Assembly (NCBI GenBank): GCA_016200145.1
Contig: JACQFH010000319.1
Location: 1 to 38,553, forward strand
Length of the DNA stretch: 38,553 nucleotides
Origin: Planctomycetia bacterium
GTDB taxonomy: Bacteria; Planctomycetota; Planctomycetia; Planctomycetales; Planctomycetaceae
Direction of reading: 5' to 3'
The notes beneath the pieces were generated by a model that saw only the letters and a program-made list of their open reading frames with translations, had not been told where the DNA came from and did not search any database. A program made the position numbers and the translations under genes. Of the stretch, positions 14,220-34,202 are shown piece by piece. Within the stretch, counting starts at the first letter, position 1; each line of letters begins with the position of its first letter.

Positions 14220-17200
14220 ATGCCCGTCCCCCTCGAACAATTCGTCAAACAGCTTCAAGACAGTGGGATCCTCGCCGGCGAGACCCTGCGGGACTTTCTA
14301 CCCCCAAAGAGCGACCCCCAGGATGCCGAAGGGCTGCTCCGCGATCTGCTCGAACACGAGAAGCTGACCAGGTTCCAGGCCGAGCAGGTCTGGCAGGGAC
14401 AGGGGAAGTCGCTTGTTCTCGATAATTACCTGCTGCTCGAAAAAATTGGCGCAGGGGGCATGGGCATTGTTTTCAAGGCCCGTCACCGCCGCATCAATCG
14501 CGTCGTGGCGATCAAGGTGCTGCCCGCCAACGTCATGAAGACGCCGGCAATTGTCGCCCGCTTCGAGCGGGAGGTGCAGGCCGTCGCCCGCATCAGCCAT
14601 CCCAACATCGTCGCAGCCTTCGACGCCGGCCGCGCGGACGGGGTGCATTTCCTGGTCATGGAGTACGTCGCGGGGAGCGACCTGGCCGTCACGGTCAAGA
14701 AGCATGGGCCACTGCCGGTCGAGACAGCGTTGAACTACATCCTGCAAACGGCACGCGGACTGGAATCTGCTCACCGGCACGGGATCGTGCATCGCGACAT
14801 CAAACCGGCCAATCTGCTGCTGGACCAGGCGGGAACGGTCAAGATCCTGGACATGGGCCTTGCCCGGTTGAGTACGGAGGGCGAGTCGGGACAGCCGGCC
14901 GATTTGACGAACACCGGGAACGTGATGGGGACGGTCGATTACATGTCGCCCGAGCAGGCCCTGGATACGAAATCGGCCGACGCGCGGGCCGACATCTACA
15001 GTCTGGGGTGCACGCTGTACTACTTGCTGACCGGGAAGGCGACGTATGACGGCGATACATTGATGAAAAAGCTGCTGGCCCACCGTGAGCATCCCATTCC
15101 CTCGCTGCGGACCCAGCGCCCGGAAGTGTCGGATCAGGTCGAAGCCGTCTTTTTCAGGATGGTGGCGAAGAACGTGGAGGACCGCTACCAGACGATGGCC
15201 GAAGTGATCGCCGATCTGGAAGCGTGCGGCGGCCGGCACCAGGGGCCATTCGGTGGGTCGCCGTCATCGGGATTAGCGACCCATGCCGGCGTGTCGACAT
15301 TTTTGCAGGAGATCGGCGCGGCGACGCCCAAGGCGTCACAGCCGAACAAACCGGCGTCCCGGTTCGGCAAACGGCAGAACGCGGTGTGGATCGGCGGCGG
15401 CGCAGCGCTGGTCGTTCTGGCTGTCATGATTATCACGCTCAGCAGGAACGACAAAAGTGTCCCACTCGCCAAATCCGCCGGCAGGAATTCGATCTCCGCG
15501 AAGCCGGCGGATGACAAGGCGACTGCGGGCCTGGCGAACGAGGTCGTCGAAACGTGGCGGACACCGGCTTTCGAGAAATGGATGAAAGGCGTGGCAGCCC
15601 TGCCAGCCGGGGAACAAGTCACCGCCGTCGCCAGTAAATTGAAAGAACTCAATCCTGGTTTTGATGGAAAACTCACACACGCGGGTGGCGTCTGGGATGT
15701 CAGGGACTTGAAGATCGTCACCGACAATATTTCGGACATTTCTCCGGTTCGGGCGTTGGCGCGATTGAAAACGTTTACGTGTACTGGCAGCGGACCGGCC
15801 AAGGGAATACTCGCGGATCTGTCGCCGTTGAAAGGGATGCCTCTGGCGTCCTTGAGCTGCGTCTACTCGCAAGTATCCGACCTTTCGCCGCTGAAAGGCA
15901 TGCCTCTGACAGAGCTGGAAATCTGGGCATCGCCGGTTTCCGACTGGTCACCGCTGACAGAGCTGCCTCTGACTTCGTTCAACTGCGGCGGCTCGCCAAT
16001 AACCGATTTGTCGTTCTTGCAGGGGATGCCGTTGACGTTCCTGAATTGCTGCCAGACACGGTTATCCGACCTCTCTCCCATCCGTGGGATGAACTTGACG
16101 GAACTCGTCGCCCATAGCACGCAGGTGTCAGACCTTGCGCCGCTGAAAGGCATGAATCTCACGAACCTGAACATTTCAAATACGCCGGTTTCCGACTTGT
16201 CGCCATTGCAAGGAATGCCCCTGACAATCGTGCACGTTAACAACACGCCGGTTTCTGACCTGTCGCCGTTAAAGGAAATGCCGCTCAAGCACCTCAAATG
16301 CGACTTCAACCTGCACCGCGATTCGGACATCCTCCGCTCGATCAAGACCTTGGAAACGATCAACGACAAACCGGCGGCCGAGTTCTGGAAGAATGTTGAT
16401 GCCCAGCAGGCTGCGTTCGACACCTGGGCACGGGACGTCGCCGTGTTGTCGCCGGAAAAACAGGTCCAGGCGGTCGCTGGCAAATTGCGTGAATTGAATC
16501 CCGCATTCGACGGGGGAGTCGCACATCAGATCGAAGAGGGAACGGTGACCGGTTTGCAGTTCGTCACCGATCACGTGGCCGACATTTCACCGGTGAGAGC
16601 ATTGACGGGACTGAAGTCGCTGACATGCGACGGCTCGGCAAGTGGTGTCGGAAAACTCGCGAACCTCTCGCCGCTGAAGGGGATGCAAATCACAGCGTTC
16701 GCCTGCAATCACACGCGGGTTTCGGACCTGTCACCTCTGCGAGAATTACCCCTCACGGTTCTTTCCTGCAGCGGCACCAGAGTCACCGACCTGTCGCCGC
16801 TCGCGGGGATGCGACTGACGAGTCTCGACTGCGACCGCACGGCAATCGCCGATCTCTCGCCCCTGAAAGACCTGCGGCTCGAGAATCTGCGCGTTCAGGG
16901 GACGAACGTGACCGACCTGTCACCGCTTCAGGATCTGCCTCTCAAAGAACTGTGGTGCCGGTTCGATCCCGAGCGCGACCTGGCGATTCTCCGCTCGATC
17001 AAGACGCTGGAGCAGTTCAATGGCCAACCGGCGGCCAAGTTCCTGGATGACGCCGCGGCCCGGCAGGCCGCCTTCGCCGCGTGGATGCAGCAGGTCGCCG
17101 AGTTGCCCGCCGAAGAACAAGTGAAAGCCGTCGCAAAAAAGTTGCAGGAGCTCAATCCGGGTTTTGACGGGAAAGAAAAGCACGAAATTGTCGCCGGTAC

Positions 17201-17852
17201 GGTGATCCAATTGGATTTTCGCACCGATCATGTGACGGATATTTCACCGGTGAGAGCACTGGTTGGACTCAAAGTGCTGATTTGCAGCGGCAGCAAGGCC
17301 GGCGCAGGCCAACTCGCCGACCTGTCGCCCCTGCGCGGAATGGCCTTGGCGACCGTATTCTGCAATGACACACAGGTTGCCGACTTGTCGCCCCTGATCG
17401 GAATGCCGCTGACGAGCCTGCAATGTCAGCGCACGTCTGTGTCCGATCTGTTGCCGCTGACAGGTCTGTCCCTCGAGGACCTCGCTATCGCCCTTACGCC
17501 GGTCCGGGATCTGTCACCGCTGCGGGGAATGCCGTTGCAGACGCTCCAGTGCTTTGACACGCCAGTTTCCGACCTGTCCCCCCTGGCCGGAATGCCGCTG
17601 AGAATGCTGAATTTCGAGCGCACGAAAGTGTCCAGCATTTCGCCGTTGAAAGGGATGCCGTTAACCTCTCTCGCATTTTCCGGAACGTACGTTTCCGACT
17701 TGTCGCCGGTTAAGGGCATGCCCCTCACGATTCTGTGGTGCGACATCACGTCGAAACGCCACGTGGACGTGCTCCGCTCCCTCAAGTCCCTGGAAACGAT
17801 CAACGGCAAACCGGCGGCTGAATTCTGGAAGGTGATGGACATCGGCAAGTAG
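14220..17852 (+). CDS. Ser/Thr kinase with three tandem LRR sensor modules
   Basis: The 1,210-residue protein begins with a helical region ending in [20 protein letters not shown] (about 1-70), common in planctomycete kinases. The Hanks-type kinase (about 70-335) has GAGGMG, K99, [10 protein letters not shown] (H191-D193), DMG for DFG (D211) and SPEQA. A transmembrane helix lies at about 387-408. Outside the membrane there are three modules (about 451-732, 733-951 and 952-1210). Each starts with a cap, F-x2-W-x3-V-A-x-L-P-x2-E-Q-V-x-A-V-x2-K-L-x-E-L-N-P, then 21-residue leucine-rich repeats of the form [16 protein letters not shown], and ends in ILRSIKTLE-x-[IF]-N-x-[KQ]-P-A-A-[EK]-F. ATG 14220 follows GCGG exactly as in its paralogue at 31437. 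It probably senses a ligand or partner protein outside the cytoplasmic membrane and phosphorylates targets inside; neither is known. Confidence 0.92.
15570..17830 (+). repeat. Three coding module repeats of the LRR kinase
   Basis: Module starts are near 15570, 16416 and 17073, and lengths are roughly 840, 650 and 760 bp. Modules differ mainly in the number of internal 21-residue repeats (roughly eight, five and seven). The paralogue at 31437 has two such modules, near 32770 and 33640. Confidence 0.75.
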
Positions 17853-18172
17853 CAGGCACACGCCGTGTGCCGTCTGTCTTGCGTAGGGGGGACTTCAGTC
17901 CCCGCGTGACAGTTTTTCATGTGGACTGACGTCCACCCTACAAAATAAACAGCCTGCGACTATCGACGAAGTTGCCCCGGCCGCTGACGGGCGGCCGGGG
18001 CACTGCTCGCGCAATTTTCGTCCCTTCGCTCGTTCCCAGGCTCTGCCTGGGAACGCCGTGCCACAGAGGCTCTGCCTCGACCGATTGCGGCGACGCGAGG
18101 CAGAGCCTCCCGGCAGTGCGGTACCAGGCAGAGCCTGGGACCGAGGTAAAAGCGGCTCTGCTGCAGATCGAC
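17853..18172. other. Convergent intergenic region with five hairpins
   Basis: No gene is seen. In order there is GGCACACGCCGTGTGCC (about 17855-17871), two bases after the kinase TAG stop. A GGGGGACTTCAGTCCCC hairpin (about 17886-17902) and a GTGGACTGACGTCCAC hairpin (about 17921-17936) are flanked by GTAGG and CCTAC. A strong GCCCCGGCCGC stem lies at 17974-18001, and a CGTTCCCAGG/CCTGGGAACG stem at 18031-18055 is followed by further GCAGAGCC repeats to about 18150. These probably end transcription from both sides. Confidence 0.65.
17974..18001. terminator. Bidirectional terminator-like hairpin, GCCCCGGCCGC family
   Basis: A perfect 11-bp stem (GCCCCGGCCGC at 17974-17984, GCGGCCGGGGC at 17991-18001) closes a six-base loop between two converging genes. 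There is no T-tract, so intrinsic termination is not certain. The same stem recurs at 37014-37040. Confidence 0.5.
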
Positions 18173-21010: not shown

Positions 21011-21367
21011 GAGGAATCTCCGGAATTTTTTCAGGCATCATCCGTCTCGGCACAATGGTGCTGTGCGCCATTCTGATCGACCCCGTGAGGGGTCGCAGCC
21101 ATTAGCCGGGGGTCGAGCGAAGCGACACCCCCGGAACGACGCGTGGAAATCAATTCGACCCCGGAGGGGTCGCAGACTCGCTCCGCGCTTGCACGGCGCG
21201 GTCGCACGATGAGTGGCTGTTTTCAAAGACGCCTGAAATCTGATGCGGGATTGCGCCGCTCTGGCACCCCTTCAGGGTGCGGGATCTCCTGCGCTCGAGA
21301 TCCGGCGGTGGTCGCTGCGCGACAACCCCCGGCTAATCGCTGGCACCCCATTCGGGGTGCTGGCCGC
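21011..21367. other. Composite block of at least five palindromic repeats
   Basis: No gene is seen in about 357 bp. GACCCCGTGAGGGGTCGCAG (21079-21098) and GACCCCGGAGGGGTCGCAG (21157-21175) are near-identical hairpins. ATTAGCCGGGGGTCGAGCGA (from about 21101) has an inverted counterpart near 21311-21337. Hairpins of the GCACCCC type lie at 21263-21280 and 21343-21360. The last ends eight bases from the DUF1501 stop codon. Confidence 0.7.
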
Positions 21368-23182: not shown

Positions 23183-23905
23183 ATGTCATTGATCGTTCGC
23201 GAACCACGCGCTCAAACCGGAACCCGCCAGCGCCGCGTCGGCACGGCTGTTGCGCCTTCGACCGGTCCGCGCAGAACACTTCTGCAGAAGGTCTCGAATC
23301 GGCTCACTCCGCAGGAATGGCGGAGGCGACTGGTGCACATGACGCCGGGACTACTGGCCGCCGTCCTCCCCATGCTGCCGCACACCGATCCGCTGGCCTG
23401 GTACTCGCAGTGGTTTCTGGTCGTCGTCATCAGCGCCACGGCGCTGTATTCGATCACCCGCGCCAGGAAGTTCGAGCGCCTCGGACAGAATGGCTGGCCT
23501 GTCTCGGTCCTCAGCTATGCGACCATCACCCTGGGACTGCTGCTCGCGTTTCCCGCGCAGACCGAAATCGGGATCGCCGTGACGATGATCATTGCGTTCG
23601 GCGACGGGTCGGCGACGATGGCCGGCATGATTGTCCGCGGGCGCAAGCTCCCCTGGAACCGCGACAAGTCGTGGGCGGGCCTGGCCGCGTTTGTGCTTTG
23701 CGCAGCGCCCCTGGCGACCTTCGTGTACTGGGCCGAAGCGCATCCGGGCGTTTCTGTGCCCGTCGCACTGGGCTGCGTCGTCCCCGCGGTGGTGGCAGCG
23801 GCCCTGGCCGAATCGCTTCCGTTGCGGCTGAACGACAACATCCGGGTGGGTGTTTCGGCGGGGCTGACAATTCTGCTGACGCATGCTATGTTCGTCGGCT
23901 ATTGA
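23183..23905 (+). CDS. Phytol/dolichol kinase-like CTP-dependent membrane protein
   Basis: The 240-residue membrane protein resembles the phosphatidate cytidylyltransferase/dolichol kinase/phytol kinase superfamily, which transfers phosphate or a nucleotide from CTP to isoprenoid alcohols or lipids. Characteristic segments are RRRLVHMTPGLLAAVLP (about 47-63), at the position of the family's R-K-x2-H-x4 start, and AFGDGSATMAGMIVRG (about 138-153) followed by KLPWNRDKSWAG (155-166), the acidic/Lys-Ser nucleotide site. About six hydrophobic segments follow an unusually long polar N-terminal tail of some 40 residues. It is the first gene of a tight run with an ABC transporter and hpnR, 34 bp before the ATPase, so an isoprenoid-lipid substrate is plausible. 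Exact substrate is unknown. Confidence 0.75.
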   Translation: MSLIVREPRAQTGTRQRRVGTAVAPSTGPRRTLLQKVSNRLTPQEWRRRLVHMTPGLLAAVLPMLPHTDPLAWYSQWFLVVVISATALYSITRARKFERLGQNGWPVSVLSYATITLGLLLAFPAQTEIGIAVTMIIAFGDGSATMAGMIVRGRKLPWNRDKSWAGLAAFVLCAAPLATFVYWAEAHPGVSVPVALGCVVPAVVAAALAESLPLRLNDNIRVGVSAGLTILLTHAMFVGY

Positions 23906-23939
23906 TCCCGATAGCCGGGCCAGGCATGGATGCACGCTG

Positions 23940-24729
23940 ATGAGTCTGCTGAAAGTCGTCGACCTGCGCAAAAGCTACGGCGACCACGTTGCCGTAAACG
24001 GGCTTTCGTTCGAAATCGAAGCAGGCGAAGTGTTCGGTCTGCTGGGGCCGAACGGGGCCGGCAAATCGACGACGATGACGATGATCGCCGGTCTCAAACG
24101 GTCCGACTCGGGTTCGATCACGCTCGACGGCCATTCGATGGCCACCGATTTCGACAAGGTCAAGAACCTGCTGGGGCTCGTCCCGCAGGACCTGGCGATC
24201 TACCCCGACCTCACCGCGCGCGAGAACCTGAACTTTTTCGGTCGCCTGTACGGCATCGGCCGCAGGACGCTGCGGGAACGCATCGATCAGGTGCTCGATC
24301 AGGTCGGCCTGGCACAGAACGCGAACGGCTTTGCACGCACGTTTTCACGCCAGCCACTACATGGAGGAAGTCGAAGCCATCTGCCGGCGGGTGGCAATCG
24401 TCGACCATGGCAAGTTGCTCACCTCCGGGACAATCGAAGGCCTGCTCAACACCAGCCGGGCCGATCTGCAGCTCAAGGTTCGGGGAGACCAGGCGCGCCT
24501 CGGGCCGCGCCTCGTGGGCCTGGCTGACGTGGAACCGACATCCGACGACGAGGTCAAAGTTGTGGTGCACCGCGCGCGCCGCGATTCGGCGTTCGCCATC
24601 AACGACCGCCTGACGCTGGTTCTCGAAATCCTGAAGCAGGCTGGCACCGAGCTGCTGGCGATCGACACGCAGGAACACAACCTCGAGCGGCTGTTTCTGG
24701 AACTGACCGGGCGCCGCCTGCGAGACTGA
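23940..24729 (+). pseudogene. ABC transporter ATPase with internal deletion and frameshift
   Basis: The first part (23940 to about 24347) encodes a normal N terminus of an ABC-2-type exporter ATPase: Walker A GPNGAGKST (36-44), the Q-loop glutamine in GLVPQDLAIYPDL (Q83) and the helical region up to FARTFS (about 136). The sequence then jumps, in the next frame, to ASHYMEEVEAICRRVAIVDH, the H-loop and C-terminal part, which runs to 24729. The missing piece, usually about 55 residues, holds the LSGG signature, Walker B and D-loop, all needed for ATP hydrolysis. The first frame would otherwise run on to 24527 through nonsense. So the gene is dead, or the assembly lost roughly 165 bp. The permease and hpnR downstream remain intact, and the three-base gap to the permease supports a former functional unit. 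Confidence 0.88.
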
Positions 24730-24732
24730 CCG

Positions 24733-25962
24733 ATGAACTCCGCCCAGATCACCAAAAAAGACCTGCTGCTGCTGTCGCGAGACCGCCGCACGCTGTTCGT
24801 TCTCGTGGCGCTGCCGCTGGCGTTCATCGCCATCATCGGCTCGTCGACCGGCCAGCTCTTCAGCCAGGCGGAGAATGCCCGCAAATACAAGCTGGGCGTC
24901 GTGGATGCCGACAAAAGCAACTTGTCGACAAGCCTCATCGACGAACTGCATGAACTCAAGGCGCTGGAAGTCGAGAAATTCGAAGACAGGAAGTCAGGGA
25001 AGGCGGCGCTGGCCGAGGATCGGATTCACGTCCTGCTCCAGATCGGCCCGAAGTACCACGAGCTTGTCGAAGAGCTGGAGGTCTACGACATCCTGCATTC
25101 CAAAGAGGGACGATTACAGGGAACCGCGAAGTCTCTCGATGTCACGGTGGAAGCGGGTTCGTTCCTGGCGAATGCGTCGGAACTGCTGGAAAAGGTGGTC
25201 TTCAGCTTCGCGCTGCAGACCATCGGGACGACAGTGATCAAAAAGGACCCAAAGCTGGAAGCGCAGATAAAAAAATCCGTCCTTCGGTCGAAGCCGAAGC
25301 ACGACGAAGACCAGCTCGCAAATCTGCCCCCGCCGCCCGAGAGCCAGGCGCCCAGCATGAACACGATCGTCTACCAGACGGTCGTCCCGGGCTACACCGT
25401 GATGTTCGTGTTCTTCATCGTCAACTTCATGGCCCGCTCGTTCATCGGCGAACACGACATGGGGACTCTGAATCGGCTGCGCCTGGCCCCCATCACCCGC
25501 TCGGGGATGATGATCGGCAAGACCGTGCCTTTCCTGATCATCTCGCTGGTCCAGACGTCTCTGCTGTTTCTGGCGGGCAAGGTGCTGTTCGGCATGGATT
25601 GGGGCACGCATCCGCTGTTGCTCTTCCCCGTGATGCTGTGCACGTCGATGTCGGCCACGTCCCTGGGCCTGATGGTCGCCACGCTCGTCCGCACCGAGGC
25701 GCAGGTTTCGGCATACGGCAACTTCCTGGTGCTGACGATGGCCGGCATTTCGGGGTGCATGATGCCCCGGAGCTGGCAGCCCGAACTGATGCAGAAACTG
25801 GGATTGATCACGCCGCACTCCTGGGCGCTGATCGCCTACGATCAGATCCTGAACCGGACCGATCCCGAGATGACGGTCGTCATCCGCTGCTGTCTGACGC
25901 TGCTGGCTTTTGCCGGGGGCTTCTTTGCTGTAGGCTGGTGGCGCTCGCGCGACATGGAATAG
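24733..25962 (+). CDS. ABC-2-type transporter permease
   Basis: The 409-residue protein has the ABC-2 exporter layout. One N-terminal transmembrane helix lies at about 20-40 (LFVLVALPLAFIAIIGSS). A large extracytoplasmic domain spans about 45-215, and a cluster of five helices spans about 220-405. FIGEHDMGTLNRLRLAPITR (about 238-257) is the conserved stretch after the second helix, and PHSWALIAYDQIL (about 357-369) is another family segment. It would pair with the ATPase encoded just upstream to export a lipid, polyketide or drug-like molecule. It is three bases from the broken ATPase gene and 18 bp from hpnR. It is intact, so it could work with another ATPase. Confidence 0.9.
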   Translation: MNSAQITKKDLLLLSRDRRTLFVLVALPLAFIAIIGSSTGQLFSQAENARKYKLGVVDADKSNLSTSLIDELHELKALEVEKFEDRKSGKAALAEDRIHVLLQIGPKYHELVEELEVYDILHSKEGRLQGTAKSLDVTVEAGSFLANASELLEKVVFSFALQTIGTTVIKKDPKLEAQIKKSVLRSKPKHDEDQLANLPPPPESQAPSMNTIVYQTVVPGYTVMFVFFIVNFMARSFIGEHDMGTLNRLRLAPITRSGMMIGKTVPFLIISLVQTSLLFLAGKVLFGMDWGTHPLLLFPVMLCTSMSATSLGLMVATLVRTEAQVSAYGNFLVLTMAGISGCMMPRSWQPELMQKLGLITPHSWALIAYDQILNRTDPEMTVVIRCCLTLLAFAGGFFAVGWWRSRDME

Positions 25963-25968
25963 CCCTGC

Positions 25969-25975
25969 AAAGGAG
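25969..25975 (+). promoter_or_regulatory. Ribosome binding site of hpnR
   Basis: AAAGGAG lies five bases before ATG 25981, the clearest Shine-Dalgarno match in the window. It fixes the hpnR start. Confidence 0.7.
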
Positions 25976-25980
25976 TCGGC

Positions 25981-27471
25981 ATGAAAGTGCTCCTGGTTCA
26001 CCCGGGCAGTCTCATGTATTCCGAGCTCTATCTGCGGCTCGAGCCGCTGGGGCTCGAGCTGGTGGCCCAGGGCTGCCGGCAGGCCGGCCACGACGTGCGG
26101 ATCATCGACCTGCAAGTGTTCCGGCCCGCCGATTATTTTCGCGCGGTCGACGAATGGCGTCCCGACGCGATCGGCTATTCCCTGAATTACCTGGCCAACA
26201 TTCCACAGGTGGTCGACCTGGCCCGCGAGACGAGGCAGAAGCTGCCCCGCGCGCTGATCTTTGCCGGCGGGCACAGCGCCAGCTTTGTGGCCCGCGAGAT
26301 CCTCGAGCACGCCGGGGGCGCGATTGACTGCATCGTCCGCGGCGAAGGCGAAGAAGTCGTCCCGCGCCTGCTGGAAGCGTCGCAGGACTCGCGCGCGCCT
26401 CTCGAAACGCTGCCCGGCGTCGTGACCCTTGAGGGCGAAGGCCCGCCTCCGCAGCTCATCAAAAGCCTCGACGACGTCCTCCCCGCACGCGACCTGATCG
26501 CCCGCCGCAAAAAATACTTCATCGGCTCGCTCGACCCGTGCGCATCGATCGAATTCTCGCGCGGCTGCCCCTGGGACTGCGTGTTCTGCAGCGCCTGGAC
26601 GTTCTATGGCCGCAGCTACCGCAAAGTCAGTCCCGAGCGGGCTGCCGACGATATGGCACGTATTCGTGAGCCGGGCGTGTTCATCGTCGACGACGTGGCG
26701 TTCATCCATCCCGAGCATGGCCACGCGATCGCCCACGAAATCGAACGCCGCCGGATCCGCAAGCAGTATTACCTCGAGACCCGCGGCGACGTGCTGCTGC
26801 GCAACAAAGACGTCTTCATCCGCTGGCGGAAGCTGGGCCTGGAGTACATGTTTCTGGGGCTGGAGGCGGTCGACGACGAGGGGCTCAAGAAGTTCCGCAA
26901 GCGGGTCTCGCTGGGAACGAATTTCGAGGCGCTCGAGTTCGCACGCTCGCTGGGGATCGTCGTCGCGGTGAACATCATCGCCGATCCGTCGTGGGACGAG
27001 CAGCGCTTCGCCGTCGTGCGCGACTGGGCCCTGTCGATCCCCGAGATCGTGCACATCACGGTGAACACCCCCTACCCCGGCACCGAAACCTGGATGACCG
27101 AGTCTCGCAATTTCACGACGCGCGACTACCGGTTGTTCGACGTGCAGCACGCCGTGTTGCCGACGACGCTGCCCCTGGCGAAGTTCTACGAAGAGCTGGT
27201 GAAGACACAGCAGATTCTGAACCGCAAGCACCTGGGGTTTGCGGCGCTGCGCGACACGTTCTGGCTGTCGGCGAAGCTCCTGGCGCAGGGGCAGACGAAT
27301 TTCGTGCGGATGCTGTGGAAGTTCAACTCGGTCTACAGCCCCGGCCGCCAGTTGGGCGATCACCACCAGCCCGTCAAATACGAAATCGGCCTCCCCCGTC
27401 ACACCCCCGAACCCCTCGCCAAAACCTCCCTCTACGTCCACCACCCGCAACCCCTGGTCGCCGCCAAGTAG
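25981..27471 (+). CDS. hpnR: Hopanoid C-3 methylase HpnR (B12-binding radical SAM)
   Basis: The 496-residue protein matches HpnR, the radical SAM enzyme that methylates hopanoids at C-3 of ring A to give 3-methylhopanoids in membranes. The N-terminal half (about 1-165) is a cobalamin-binding-type Rossmann domain starting MKVLLVHPGSLMY. The radical SAM core (about 185-400) carries the 4Fe-4S motif CPWDCVFC (C196, C200, C203) in a context, EFSRGCPWDCVFCSAWTFYG, that I recognise from HpnR. Other HpnR-like segments are FIVDDVAFI, QYYLETRGDVLLRN, LEYMFLGLEA, NTPYPGTETW and LNRKHLGFAALRD. It is the last gene of the operon with the polyprenol-kinase-like protein and ABC exporter. No squalene-hopene cyclase is in the window. 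The TAG stop shares its G with a palindrome. A methylase acting on another isoprenoid is the main alternative. Confidence 0.88.
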   Translation: MKVLLVHPGSLMYSELYLRLEPLGLELVAQGCRQAGHDVRIIDLQVFRPADYFRAVDEWRPDAIGYSLNYLANIPQVVDLARETRQKLPRALIFAGGHSASFVAREILEHAGGAIDCIVRGEGEEVVPRLLEASQDSRAPLETLPGVVTLEGEGPPPQLIKSLDDVLPARDLIARRKKYFIGSLDPCASIEFSRGCPWDCVFCSAWTFYGRSYRKVSPERAADDMARIREPGVFIVDDVAFIHPEHGHAIAHEIERRRIRKQYYLETRGDVLLRNKDVFIRWRKLGLEYMFLGLEAVDDEGLKKFRKRVSLGTNFEALEFARSLGIVVAVNIIADPSWDEQRFAVVRDWALSIPEIVHITVNTPYPGTETWMTESRNFTTRDYRLFDVQHAVLPTTLPLAKFYEELVKTQQILNRKHLGFAALRDTFWLSAKLLAQGQTNFVRMLWKFNSVYSPGRQLGDHHQPVKYEIGLPRHTPEPLAKTSLYVHHPQPLVAAK

Positions 27472-30934: not shown

Positions 30935-31436
30935 TCCTGGACGCAGCGAACGCTTCAATCTGTGAAAATCTGCGCAATCTGTGGATAGTCCCGGTCGCCG
31001 CCTCAATGTGATCCGTGGGATTGCCACGCCATCCGTGGGTTCATTCCGAAAGCACGGTGAGTCAGAAAATATCTTCACCAACCCCCCCCTTACGAAGGGG
31101 GGAGGGTGATCGTTGTCAGCGGGGCACGTGGTTGCCCCGGTTTGTCGGGCCGGCGATAGAACCGGCAGAATGCCGCCCAACGTAGATGCGGCAGGATGCC
31201 GCATCCGCAATGTGACTTTGGTCCGGACTTCATCACCACCGGCACAAGTTACATCGACCGAACAATCTGCAAGCCGAGTCCAACGCCGATGCGGCAGGAT
31301 GCCGCATCTACTTTCGGCGCCGCTGTGAATCGCCCGGATCCTGGATTAGAATGCCAAAATCGGGTCGGGCCCGTGGTCAACCAGTTTCGGCCAGCCGTCG
31401 CCCGCAAGCGCTCTTTCATTTCGCCGGGCTTTGCGG
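30935..31436. other. Intergenic region rich in repeat fragments
   Basis: No gene is seen in about 500 bp. The parts are an AATCTGTG-type word cluster (about 30957-30990) like that at 11670, ATCCGTGGG words (31010-31040), an AACCCCCCCTTACGAAGGGGGG palindrome preceded by AAATATCTTCACC (about 31063-31103) that recurs at the window's right end, a GGGGCACGTGGTTGCCCC hairpin, and repeat C copy 2. The promoter of the second LRR kinase must lie near 31320-31430. Confidence 0.65.
31182..31314. repeat. Repeat C, copy 2
   Basis: It begins GTAGATGCGGCAGGATGCCG and ends GGATGCCGCATCTACTTT. It shares the internal ATCACC..CCGGCAC, ACAATCTGCAAGC and GTCCAACGCCGATGCGG words with copy 1 (28190-28325). The terminal GATGCGGCA-GGA-TGCCGCATC is itself a hyphenated palindrome. 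Confidence 0.8.
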
Positions 31437-34202
31437 ATGGCCGTCCCTGTTCAACAGTTCGTCAAGCTGCTGGAAGACAGCGGCATCTTGTCCGGCGAGA
31501 CGCTCCGGGAATTCTTGCCTCCCCGGAGCCACCCGAAAGACGCCGACGAGCTGTTGCGGGAACTGGTCCGTTGCAACAAGTTGACCGGGTTCCAGGCCGA
31601 GCAGGTCTGGCAGGGGAAGGGGCAGGGCCTCGTTCTCGATAACTACGTCCTTCTGGAGAAGATCGGCGCCGGGGGGATGGGAATGGTGTTCAAAGCGCGG
31701 CACAAACGGATGGACCGTATCGTGGCGGTCAAGGTGCTCCCCGCGCACGTGATGAAAACCCCGGCGGTCGTGGCCCGGTTTGAGCGCGAGGTGCGCGCCG
31801 CCGCGCGCTTGAGCCATCCCAATATCGTCGCCGCGTTCGACGCGGGGAACGCGCGGGGCGTTTACTTCCTGGCGATGGAGTACGTGGCCGGGCACGACCT
31901 GGCCGTCACCGTCCGGCAGCGGGGCCCATTGCCGGTCGACCAGGCCCTGAACTACATCGTGCAGGCCGCCCGAGGTCTGCAAGCAGCCCATCAGCACGGC
32001 ATCGTCCATCGGGATATCAAGCCGGCCAACCTGCTGCTGGACCAGTCGGGGACGGTAAAAATCCTGGACATGGGGCTGGCCCGATTGAGCGCCGAAGGAG
32101 ACTCGGGCCAGCCAGCCGACCTGACCAACACGGGCAACGTCATGGGAACGGTCGATTACATGTCCCCCGAGCAGGCGCTCGACACCAAGTCCGCCGACGC
32201 GCGGGCCGACATCTACAGCCTGGGCTGCACGCTGCACTATCTGCTGACTGGCAAACCCGGGTACGACGGCGACTCGCTGGTCAAGAAGATCCTGGCGCAC
32301 CGGGAACATCCGATTCCCTCGTTGCGGGTCCAGCGCCCCGACGTCCCGGACCGGATCGGGGCGGTCTGCACCAGGAGGATGGCCAAGAACGTCGAAGACC
32401 GGTACCAGACGATCGGAGATCTGCTGGCCGATCTGGAAACAGGGGGCATGCCGTACGATCCCCAGGCCGGCGCCCGGCCGCTGCATTCGTATGTTTCGGA
32501 CGCGGGCGTCTCAAGCTTCCTCCAGGAGATCGGCGCGTCGCCGGTGGCGTCGCGCTCCTCGACTGCGTCGACGCACCAGCGCCGCACTCGGCTGTGGATC
32601 GCCGGAAGCGTGATCGGCGCCGCGGCAGTCATCGCCATCGCGTTCAGCATGCTTGGCAACAGGAACAAAGAAAGCTCGCGCACCCGCTCCGACGACCGGC
32701 AGGCCAATGCTGCGAAGCTGGGCGGCGCCGGCAACAAGCAAACCGGCGCAGCGCTCGAACGCTGGCAGACGCCCGAGTTCGAGAAGTGGATGAATTCGGT
32801 GGCCGAGCTGTCTCCTGAGAAGCAAGCGAGTGCCGTGGCGCGGAAGCTGAAGGAGCTGAATCCCGGGTTCGACGGCACGCCCAGATCCAAGTTGGAGCTG
32901 ACCGGGGTCTCCGAACTGCAATTCTACACCGACCAGGTACGGGATATCTCGCCGGTGCGGGCGCTGGCCGGGCTCAAAAAGCTGGAATGCTTCGGCAGCC
33001 GGCCCTTCGGTACACATGGCCCCGTCGGAATCCTGGCCAGTCTGAAGCCGCTCACCGGGATGCAGTTGACGTATCTGGATTGCGGGACGACGGAAGTCGC
33101 CGACTTGTCGCCGCTCACCGGGATGCCGCTCACGGAATTGCATATCCCCTATACGTTCGTTGTCAGTCTGGAACCATTGAGGGGCATGCGGTTGGCGCAC
33201 CTGAATTGTCCCTGGTCGCACGTGTCGGACTTGTCGCCGCTGCGCGGCATGTCGCTGACCGACCTGCAGTGCGGGCAGACTGAAATTGACAGCCTTGAGC
33301 CCCTGGCGGGGGCGCCACTCACCCAGTTGAACTGCGGCGTGACCCGTGTCGACGACCTGTCCCCCCTGGCAGGGATGGCGCTCGACAGCCTGTTGATTCA
33401 CGCGACATTTGTCAGAGACCTGTCGCCGCTGCGAGGCATGCCACTGGAGCGATTGTACTTCGATCAGTCGCAAGTCACTGACCTCGAGCCCCTTGCCGGA
33501 ATGCCCTTGAAAGACCTCCAATGGAAGGTCAATCCGCTCCGCGACGGGGACGTATTGCGCTCGATCACCACTCTCGAAACCATCAACGGAAAACCGGCGG
33601 CCGAGTTCTGGAAGGAGGTTGACGCGCGGCTCAAGATCTTCGACGTCTGGGCCGGGTACGTCGCGGAATTGCCAGCCGCGCGGCAAGTCGAAGCCGTCGC
33701 CAGAAAACTGCAGGAGTTGAATCCTGACTTCGACGGAAAGGTTGGGAGTGGCATCAAAGACGGCGTTGTCACTGCGGCAGGATTCGTCAGCGACACCGTG
33801 ACCGACCTTTCGCCGCTCCGGGCACTGACAGGACTCAAAGACCTCGATTGCTGCGGCAGCCTGCCCCCGAAAGGACTTTCCGATCTCTCCGGACTGAAAG
33901 GCCTGGCGCTGACTCGCCTGGACTGTCACTACACGCTGGTGTCGGATCTTTCGCCGCTGAAGGGAATGCCGCTGACCAGCCTCTCCCTGATCAACACGAA
34001 CGTATACACCCTGGCCCCCTTGAAAGGGATGCCGCTGACGGTGTTGCATGTTTCGGGGAAACTCGACTTGTCGGTCCTGGCTGACATGCCGCTGGTCACC
34101 CTGAGTTGCGACTTCAATCCACAGCGCGACACGAAAATTCTCCGGTCGATCAAGACCCTGGAAACAATCAACGGCAAACCGGCCGCCGAGTTCCTGAGGT
34201 AG
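31437..34202 (+). CDS. Ser/Thr kinase with two tandem LRR sensor modules
   Basis: This 921-residue protein is a close paralogue of the kinase at 14220-17852. Residues 1-335 align without gaps: the N-terminal [11 protein letters not shown] region, GAGGMG, K99, [10 protein letters not shown] (191-200), DMG (211-213) and [21 protein letters not shown] transmembrane helix lies at about 385-405. The outer part has two modules, starting FEKWMNSVAELSPEKQ (near 32770) and FDVWAGYVAELPAARQ (near 33640). Each has an N-terminal cap, 21-residue leucine-rich repeats and the [19 protein letters not shown] end; the protein stops right after the second end motif. ATG 31437 matches the paralogue's start context (GCGGATGGCCGTCCC); a TTG six bases earlier is less likely. 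The kinase domain is well conserved and the repeats diverged, as expected for receptors with different ligands. Confidence 0.92.
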   Translation: MAVPVQQFVKLLEDSGILSGETLREFLPPRSHPKDADELLRELVRCNKLTGFQAEQVWQGKGQGLVLDNYVLLEKIGAGGMGMVFKARHKRMDRIVAVKVLPAHVMKTPAVVARFEREVRAAARLSHPNIVAAFDAGNARGVYFLAMEYVAGHDLAVTVRQRGPLPVDQALNYIVQAARGLQAAHQHGIVHRDIKPANLLLDQSGTVKILDMGLARLSAEGDSGQPADLTNTGNVMGTVDYMSPEQALDTKSADARADIYSLGCTLHYLLTGKPGYDGDSLVKKILAHREHPIPSLRVQRPDVPDRIGAVCTRRMAKNVEDRYQTIGDLLADLETGGMPYDPQAGARPLHSYVSDAGVSSFLQEIGASPVASRSSTASTHQRRTRLWIAGSVIGAAAVIAIAFSMLGNRNKESSRTRSDDRQANAAKLGGAGNKQTGAALERWQTPEFEKWMNSVAELSPEKQASAVARKLKELNPGFDGTPRSKLELTGVSELQFYTDQVRDISPVRALAGLKKLECFGSRPFGTHGPVGILASLKPLTGMQLTYLDCGTTEVADLSPLTGMPLTELHIPYTFVVSLEPLRGMRLAHLNCPWSHVSDLSPLRGMSLTDLQCGQTEIDSLEPLAGAPLTQLNCGVTRVDDLSPLAGMALDSLLIHATFVRDLSPLRGMPLERLYFDQSQVTDLEPLAGMPLKDLQWKVNPLRDGDVLRSITTLETINGKPAAEFWKEVDARLKIFDVWAGYVAELPAARQVEAVARKLQELNPDFDGKVGSGIKDGVVTAAGFVSDTVTDLSPLRALTGLKDLDCCGSLPPKGLSDLSGLKGLALTRLDCHYTLVSDLSPLKGMPLTSLSLINTNVYTLAPLKGMPLTVLHVSGKLDLSVLADMPLVTLSCDFNPQRDTKILRSIKTLETINGKPAAEFLR

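Follow-up and report, generated by a model that had tools for sequence, protein, structure and literature searches.

The window, a stretch of 38,553 nt, corresponds to contig C592 in a planctomycete MAG of 8.28 Mb (742 contigs; contamination of 2.8%). Four coding regions follow one another on its plus strand, separated by intergenic gaps of 34, 3, and 18 bp, and the coordinates given in an earlier note on this DNA are reproduced here: kin (23183 to 23905), which encodes a multi-pass membrane protein of 240 aa with PF01148-like features; a DrrA-like ABC-2 exporter ATPase gene (23940 to 24729), which is broken as sequenced; an ABC-2 type permease gene (24733 to 25962), whose 409-aa product matches ABC2_membrane_3 (PF12698, E = 4.4e-35); and hpnR (25981 to 27471), which encodes a hopanoid C-3 methylase of 496 aa, recognized by TIGR04367, alignment, and trees. 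The block is bracketed by a pair of serine/threonine kinase genes that resemble each other and contain leucine-rich-type repeats (14220 to 17852 and 31431 to 34202), and GC-rich inverted repeats (type tcccgcctgccgggcgggac) are present in two copies just 3′ of hpnR (at about 27475 and 27580). Stretches of ~100 to 290 bp at 17835 to 18145 and 21074 to 21363 recur at 71 to 88% identity on many contigs of the source genome and, because of these copies, are probably dispersed repeats.

The identity of the fourth gene as HpnR, proposed in the earlier note, is confirmed by a full-length match to the TIGR04367 equivalog (871 bits, against a cut-off of 650). The protein contains a B12-binding domain (PF02310) and a radical SAM domain (PF04055), and the cysteines of its CxxxCxxC motif (C196/C200/C203) are invariant across the alignment. 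In quick trees, HpnR sequences, including that of the window, split from an outgroup of other B12 radical SAM proteins with a support of 98; one Methylococcaceae HpnR served as the reference in place of characterized ones, and the tree contained neither an assayed HpnR nor an HpnP. The squalene-hopene cyclase (SHC) gene that the earlier note had proposed seeking elsewhere in the genome was found (690 bits, cut-off 431), as was HpnH (535 bits, cut-off 225), both on contigs other than C592. The window protein thus resembles known HpnRs in its equivalog match, domains, and invariant cysteines, with SHC and HpnH in the same genome, but differs from them in its planctomycete host and in its position behind a kin–ABC–permease module. 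Because a true hpnR, SHC, and HpnH co-occur in one genome, a capacity for 3-methylhopanoid synthesis is a sound prediction from sequence; hpnR-bearing strains do not all make 3-methylhopanoids (PMC12583986). Hopanoid transport has been credited to the RND protein HpnN (reviewed in PMC12583986). A large MMPL/RND-type transporter is encoded ~4 kb from the SHC gene in the source genome (L043:15708-18728, on contig C600), and its match to HpnN is weak (63 bits, below the cut-off).

The first gene is harder to place. Direct scans of the window protein yielded no match to any Pfam or NCBIfam model, and a sequence-profile search of solved structures returned chance matches only; 7 of 20 homologues from the family match PF01148 (best, 6.3e-8), a match that the window protein itself lacks. 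The best Foldseek match of its AlphaFold model (pLDDT of 88) is CdsA (E = 0.11), and a second comparison returned CDP-archaeol synthase and CdsA at a Z of about 7, which is below the level that is safe for helical proteins. Conserved motifs of the form FGDGsAt...LPWN..K...G and DN.rV include invariant positions (the G-D of FGDG, LPWN, one K, and the DN near the C terminus), which we take to resemble motifs known from phytol and dolichol kinases. The earlier note had assigned this gene to a superfamily that uses CTP to act on isoprenoid alcohols or lipids; its membership in the dolichol/phytol kinase–CDP-DAG synthase superfamily stands as likely, on weak but converging evidence from sequence and the predicted model. 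With the PF01148 superfamily members SEC59, VTE5 (dolichol/phytol kinases), CdsA, and CarS, kin shares a multihelix membrane architecture and GDG/K/DN-type motifs; its predicted fold comes closest, at the scores given above, to those of CdsA and CarS, and some kin homologues match PF01148. Unlike all four, the window protein falls below Pfam detection and is encoded with an ABC-2 exporter. The source genome contains two further kin paralogues with no adjoining ABC exporter (C554:4119-4811 and C123:13505-14134; L089 and L090), whose neighbors are uninformative, and most kin-positive genomes of the family have a single copy.

The second gene, which the earlier note had taken for an intact ABC ATPase, is broken as assembled. 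In the frame that begins at the ATG at 23940, ABC homology ends at about residue 132 and gives way to unrelated residues before a stop at 24527, and the remainder of the gene sits in a different frame (24331 to 24729). Relative to its closest intact relative, the 325-aa orthologue in G001, the only other genome of the genus compared, the DNA displays a single clean gap of 158 bp (junction at approximately 24346 to 24352; alignment with L039:8035-9012), which takes out two motifs present in G001, the signature and Walker B, and shifts the frame. Both remaining parts align to the G001 gene without further indels, with dN/dS values of 0.13 and 0.11, indicative of purifying selection and similar to those of kin (0.18), the permease (0.17), and hpnR (0.10) in the same comparison; for this reason, the lesion is either an assembly error or a recent mutation. 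The missing segment was not found at the expected identity on any second contig of the source assembly. Of the components of an ABC-2 exporter, the four-gene block accordingly has the permease and lacks an ATPase combining Walker A, signature, and Walker B. The adjacency of an ATPase and an ABC2_membrane_3 permease recalls DrrAB-type ABC-2 exporters, from which the window differs in its broken ATPase and in matches that fall below the subfamily cut-offs. An intact paralogous ATPase lies at the end of another contig (L249:6414-7433, on C524; 54% identical to the G001 ATPase) and could serve as a backup.

The four-gene order is not unique to this strain: kin, the ABC ATPase gene, the permease gene, and hpnR occur in the same succession in G001, which represents a second species. 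The other genes on that G001 contig do not match the window, such that the block is kept while its flanks differ, and an identical order of the same four genes against different flanks shows that the arrangement is not due to chance. Retention of the block in two species is a hint that keeping hpnR and the module together is of some benefit. Spacing varies: permease and hpnR are separated by 205 bp, without a conserved spacer, in G001 versus 18 bp in the window.

Across the family, the distributions of the parts diverge. hpnR is present in 2 of 170 genomes, both of this genus, and kin in 92 of 170. Cross-tabulated with SHC, 63 genomes have both, 29 have kin only, 63 have SHC only, and 15 have neither; the resulting odds ratio of 0.52 (Fisher p = 0.08, uncorrected for relatedness) gives no positive association. 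Among 42 kin loci read, kin adjoins an ABC gene at 15 further loci in 12 genera, and the permease follows at 12 of these (9 genera). Two genomes of genus g29 (G029 and G488; 98% and 97% complete) contain the kin–ABC–permease trio and have no match to SHC. Conversely, the trio is absent beside hpnR in ~80 other named hpnR loci, drawn from many phyla, as well as in three other hpnR loci of the same class, and no gene recurring beside hpnR across phyla was found that would explain the trio. The genes therefore do not co-occur with hopanoid genes across genomes in the manner of a dedicated cassette. Since the trio is widespread in the family without hpnR, and is present even in relatives lacking SHC, a local attachment is a more probable account of the neighborhood than a pathway dedicated to hopanoids, and the kin–ABC–permease module is a planctomycete system separate from hpnR. 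In the literature searched, of which coverage was partial, we found no description of this module.

We consider it quite probable that the locus comprises two units placed end to end: an older, independent kin–ABC–permease module and, lodged behind it, an hpnR that has spread horizontally among bacteria. The first unit would be a long-standing module of the family that functions independently of hopanoids, in which kin, an integral membrane member of the CTP-dependent superfamily, most likely phosphorylates or activates a lipid alcohol of the membrane, (poly)isoprenoid or other, while the ABC-2 exporter may carry that lipid, or a conjugate of it, across the inner membrane. The second unit, hpnR, would encode a B12/radical SAM methylase for position C-3 on ring A of hopanoids, which acts on hopanoids derived from squalene via SHC and then extended through HpnH, both encoded elsewhere in the genome. 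Within the family, hpnR appears to have entered, presumably by transfer, or to have been kept in, this genus alone, and it came to lie directly downstream of the first unit, with which it is probably co-transcribed in the window species, as the 18-bp gap suggests. The 158-bp deletion disables the ATPase as assembled, and export by the first unit is perhaps lost here; HpnR should be unaffected.

The earlier note had instead joined all four genes into a single pathway for the synthesis, modification, and movement of one isoprenoid lipid: kin would activate a hopanoid-type lipid, HpnR would methylate it, and the exporter would move it. None of the three findings that the note had named as refuting its proposal was obtained, since the genome has SHC, the protein falls within HpnR, and the gene order extends to a second species; even so, the evidence does not support a cassette for one lipid. 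Conservation of the block in two species with different flanks, the common strand and tight spacing in the window, and the presence of SHC and HpnH in the genome all accord with such a cassette, yet the wide occurrence of the trio without hpnR and without SHC, the different neighbors of hpnR elsewhere (~80 loci without the trio), the 205-bp gap in G001, the broken ATPase of the window, and the attribution of hopanoid transport to HpnN (PMC12583986) render it improbable. A function shared by all four genes is possible, as a less likely reading than a separate module with an added hpnR. Another rival is secondary recruitment, whereby an ancestral lipid-alcohol export module switched to 3-methylhopanoids after hpnR joined it, in this genus alone; the trio is retained together with hpnR in both known species, but the dN/dS values of kin and the permease (0.17 to 0.18) are those of ordinary purifying selection, and we regard this course of events as quite improbable. 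It is very doubtful that, in this one genus, the ancestral lipid-alcohol kinase and ABC exporter were joined with hpnR such that a 3-methylated hopanoid alcohol is both phosphorylated and exported, in a route of hopanoid transport and modification distinct from HpnN.

An artefactual origin, through misassembly or misbinning of the contig, with either the gene order or the ABC lesion spurious, draws on the fragmentation of the MAG into 742 contigs, its 2.8% contamination, and the occurrence of a broken ABC gene in otherwise intact coding sequence. Set against this, the same order recurs in an independent MAG (G001), and the tetranucleotide profile of C592 fits those of other contigs of the source genome (r of ~0.98), making an artefact of this scope extremely unlikely. 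An assembly error confined to the ABC gene is possible and would be compatible with the two-unit explanation.

The planctomycete source that the earlier note had singled out as consequential is supported. 3-Methylhopanes preserved in rocks serve as markers for particular bacteria, and this genus of planctomycetes, which has SHC, HpnH, and a bona fide HpnR, represents a further candidate source of these compounds. The literature searched, again with partial coverage, mentions hpnR alongside planctomycetes only in passing, and never under the name “Planctomycetota.” The window HpnR groups with that of G001 (84% identity), and the pair next joins other planctomycete sequences with moderate support (85 to 92). 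Taken together, the HpnRs of planctomycetes are not a single clade: a tree constrained to keep 14 of them as one group is rejected (p-AU = 1e-39). This non-monophyly is consistent with several transfers, and as such, gene transfers have probably shaped the taxonomic spread of the 3-methylhopane marker. Individual planctomycete HpnRs (L040, L041, L042, L049, L051, L048, L127, and others) are scattered in the tree, with some situated near Myxococcota or Nitrospirota.
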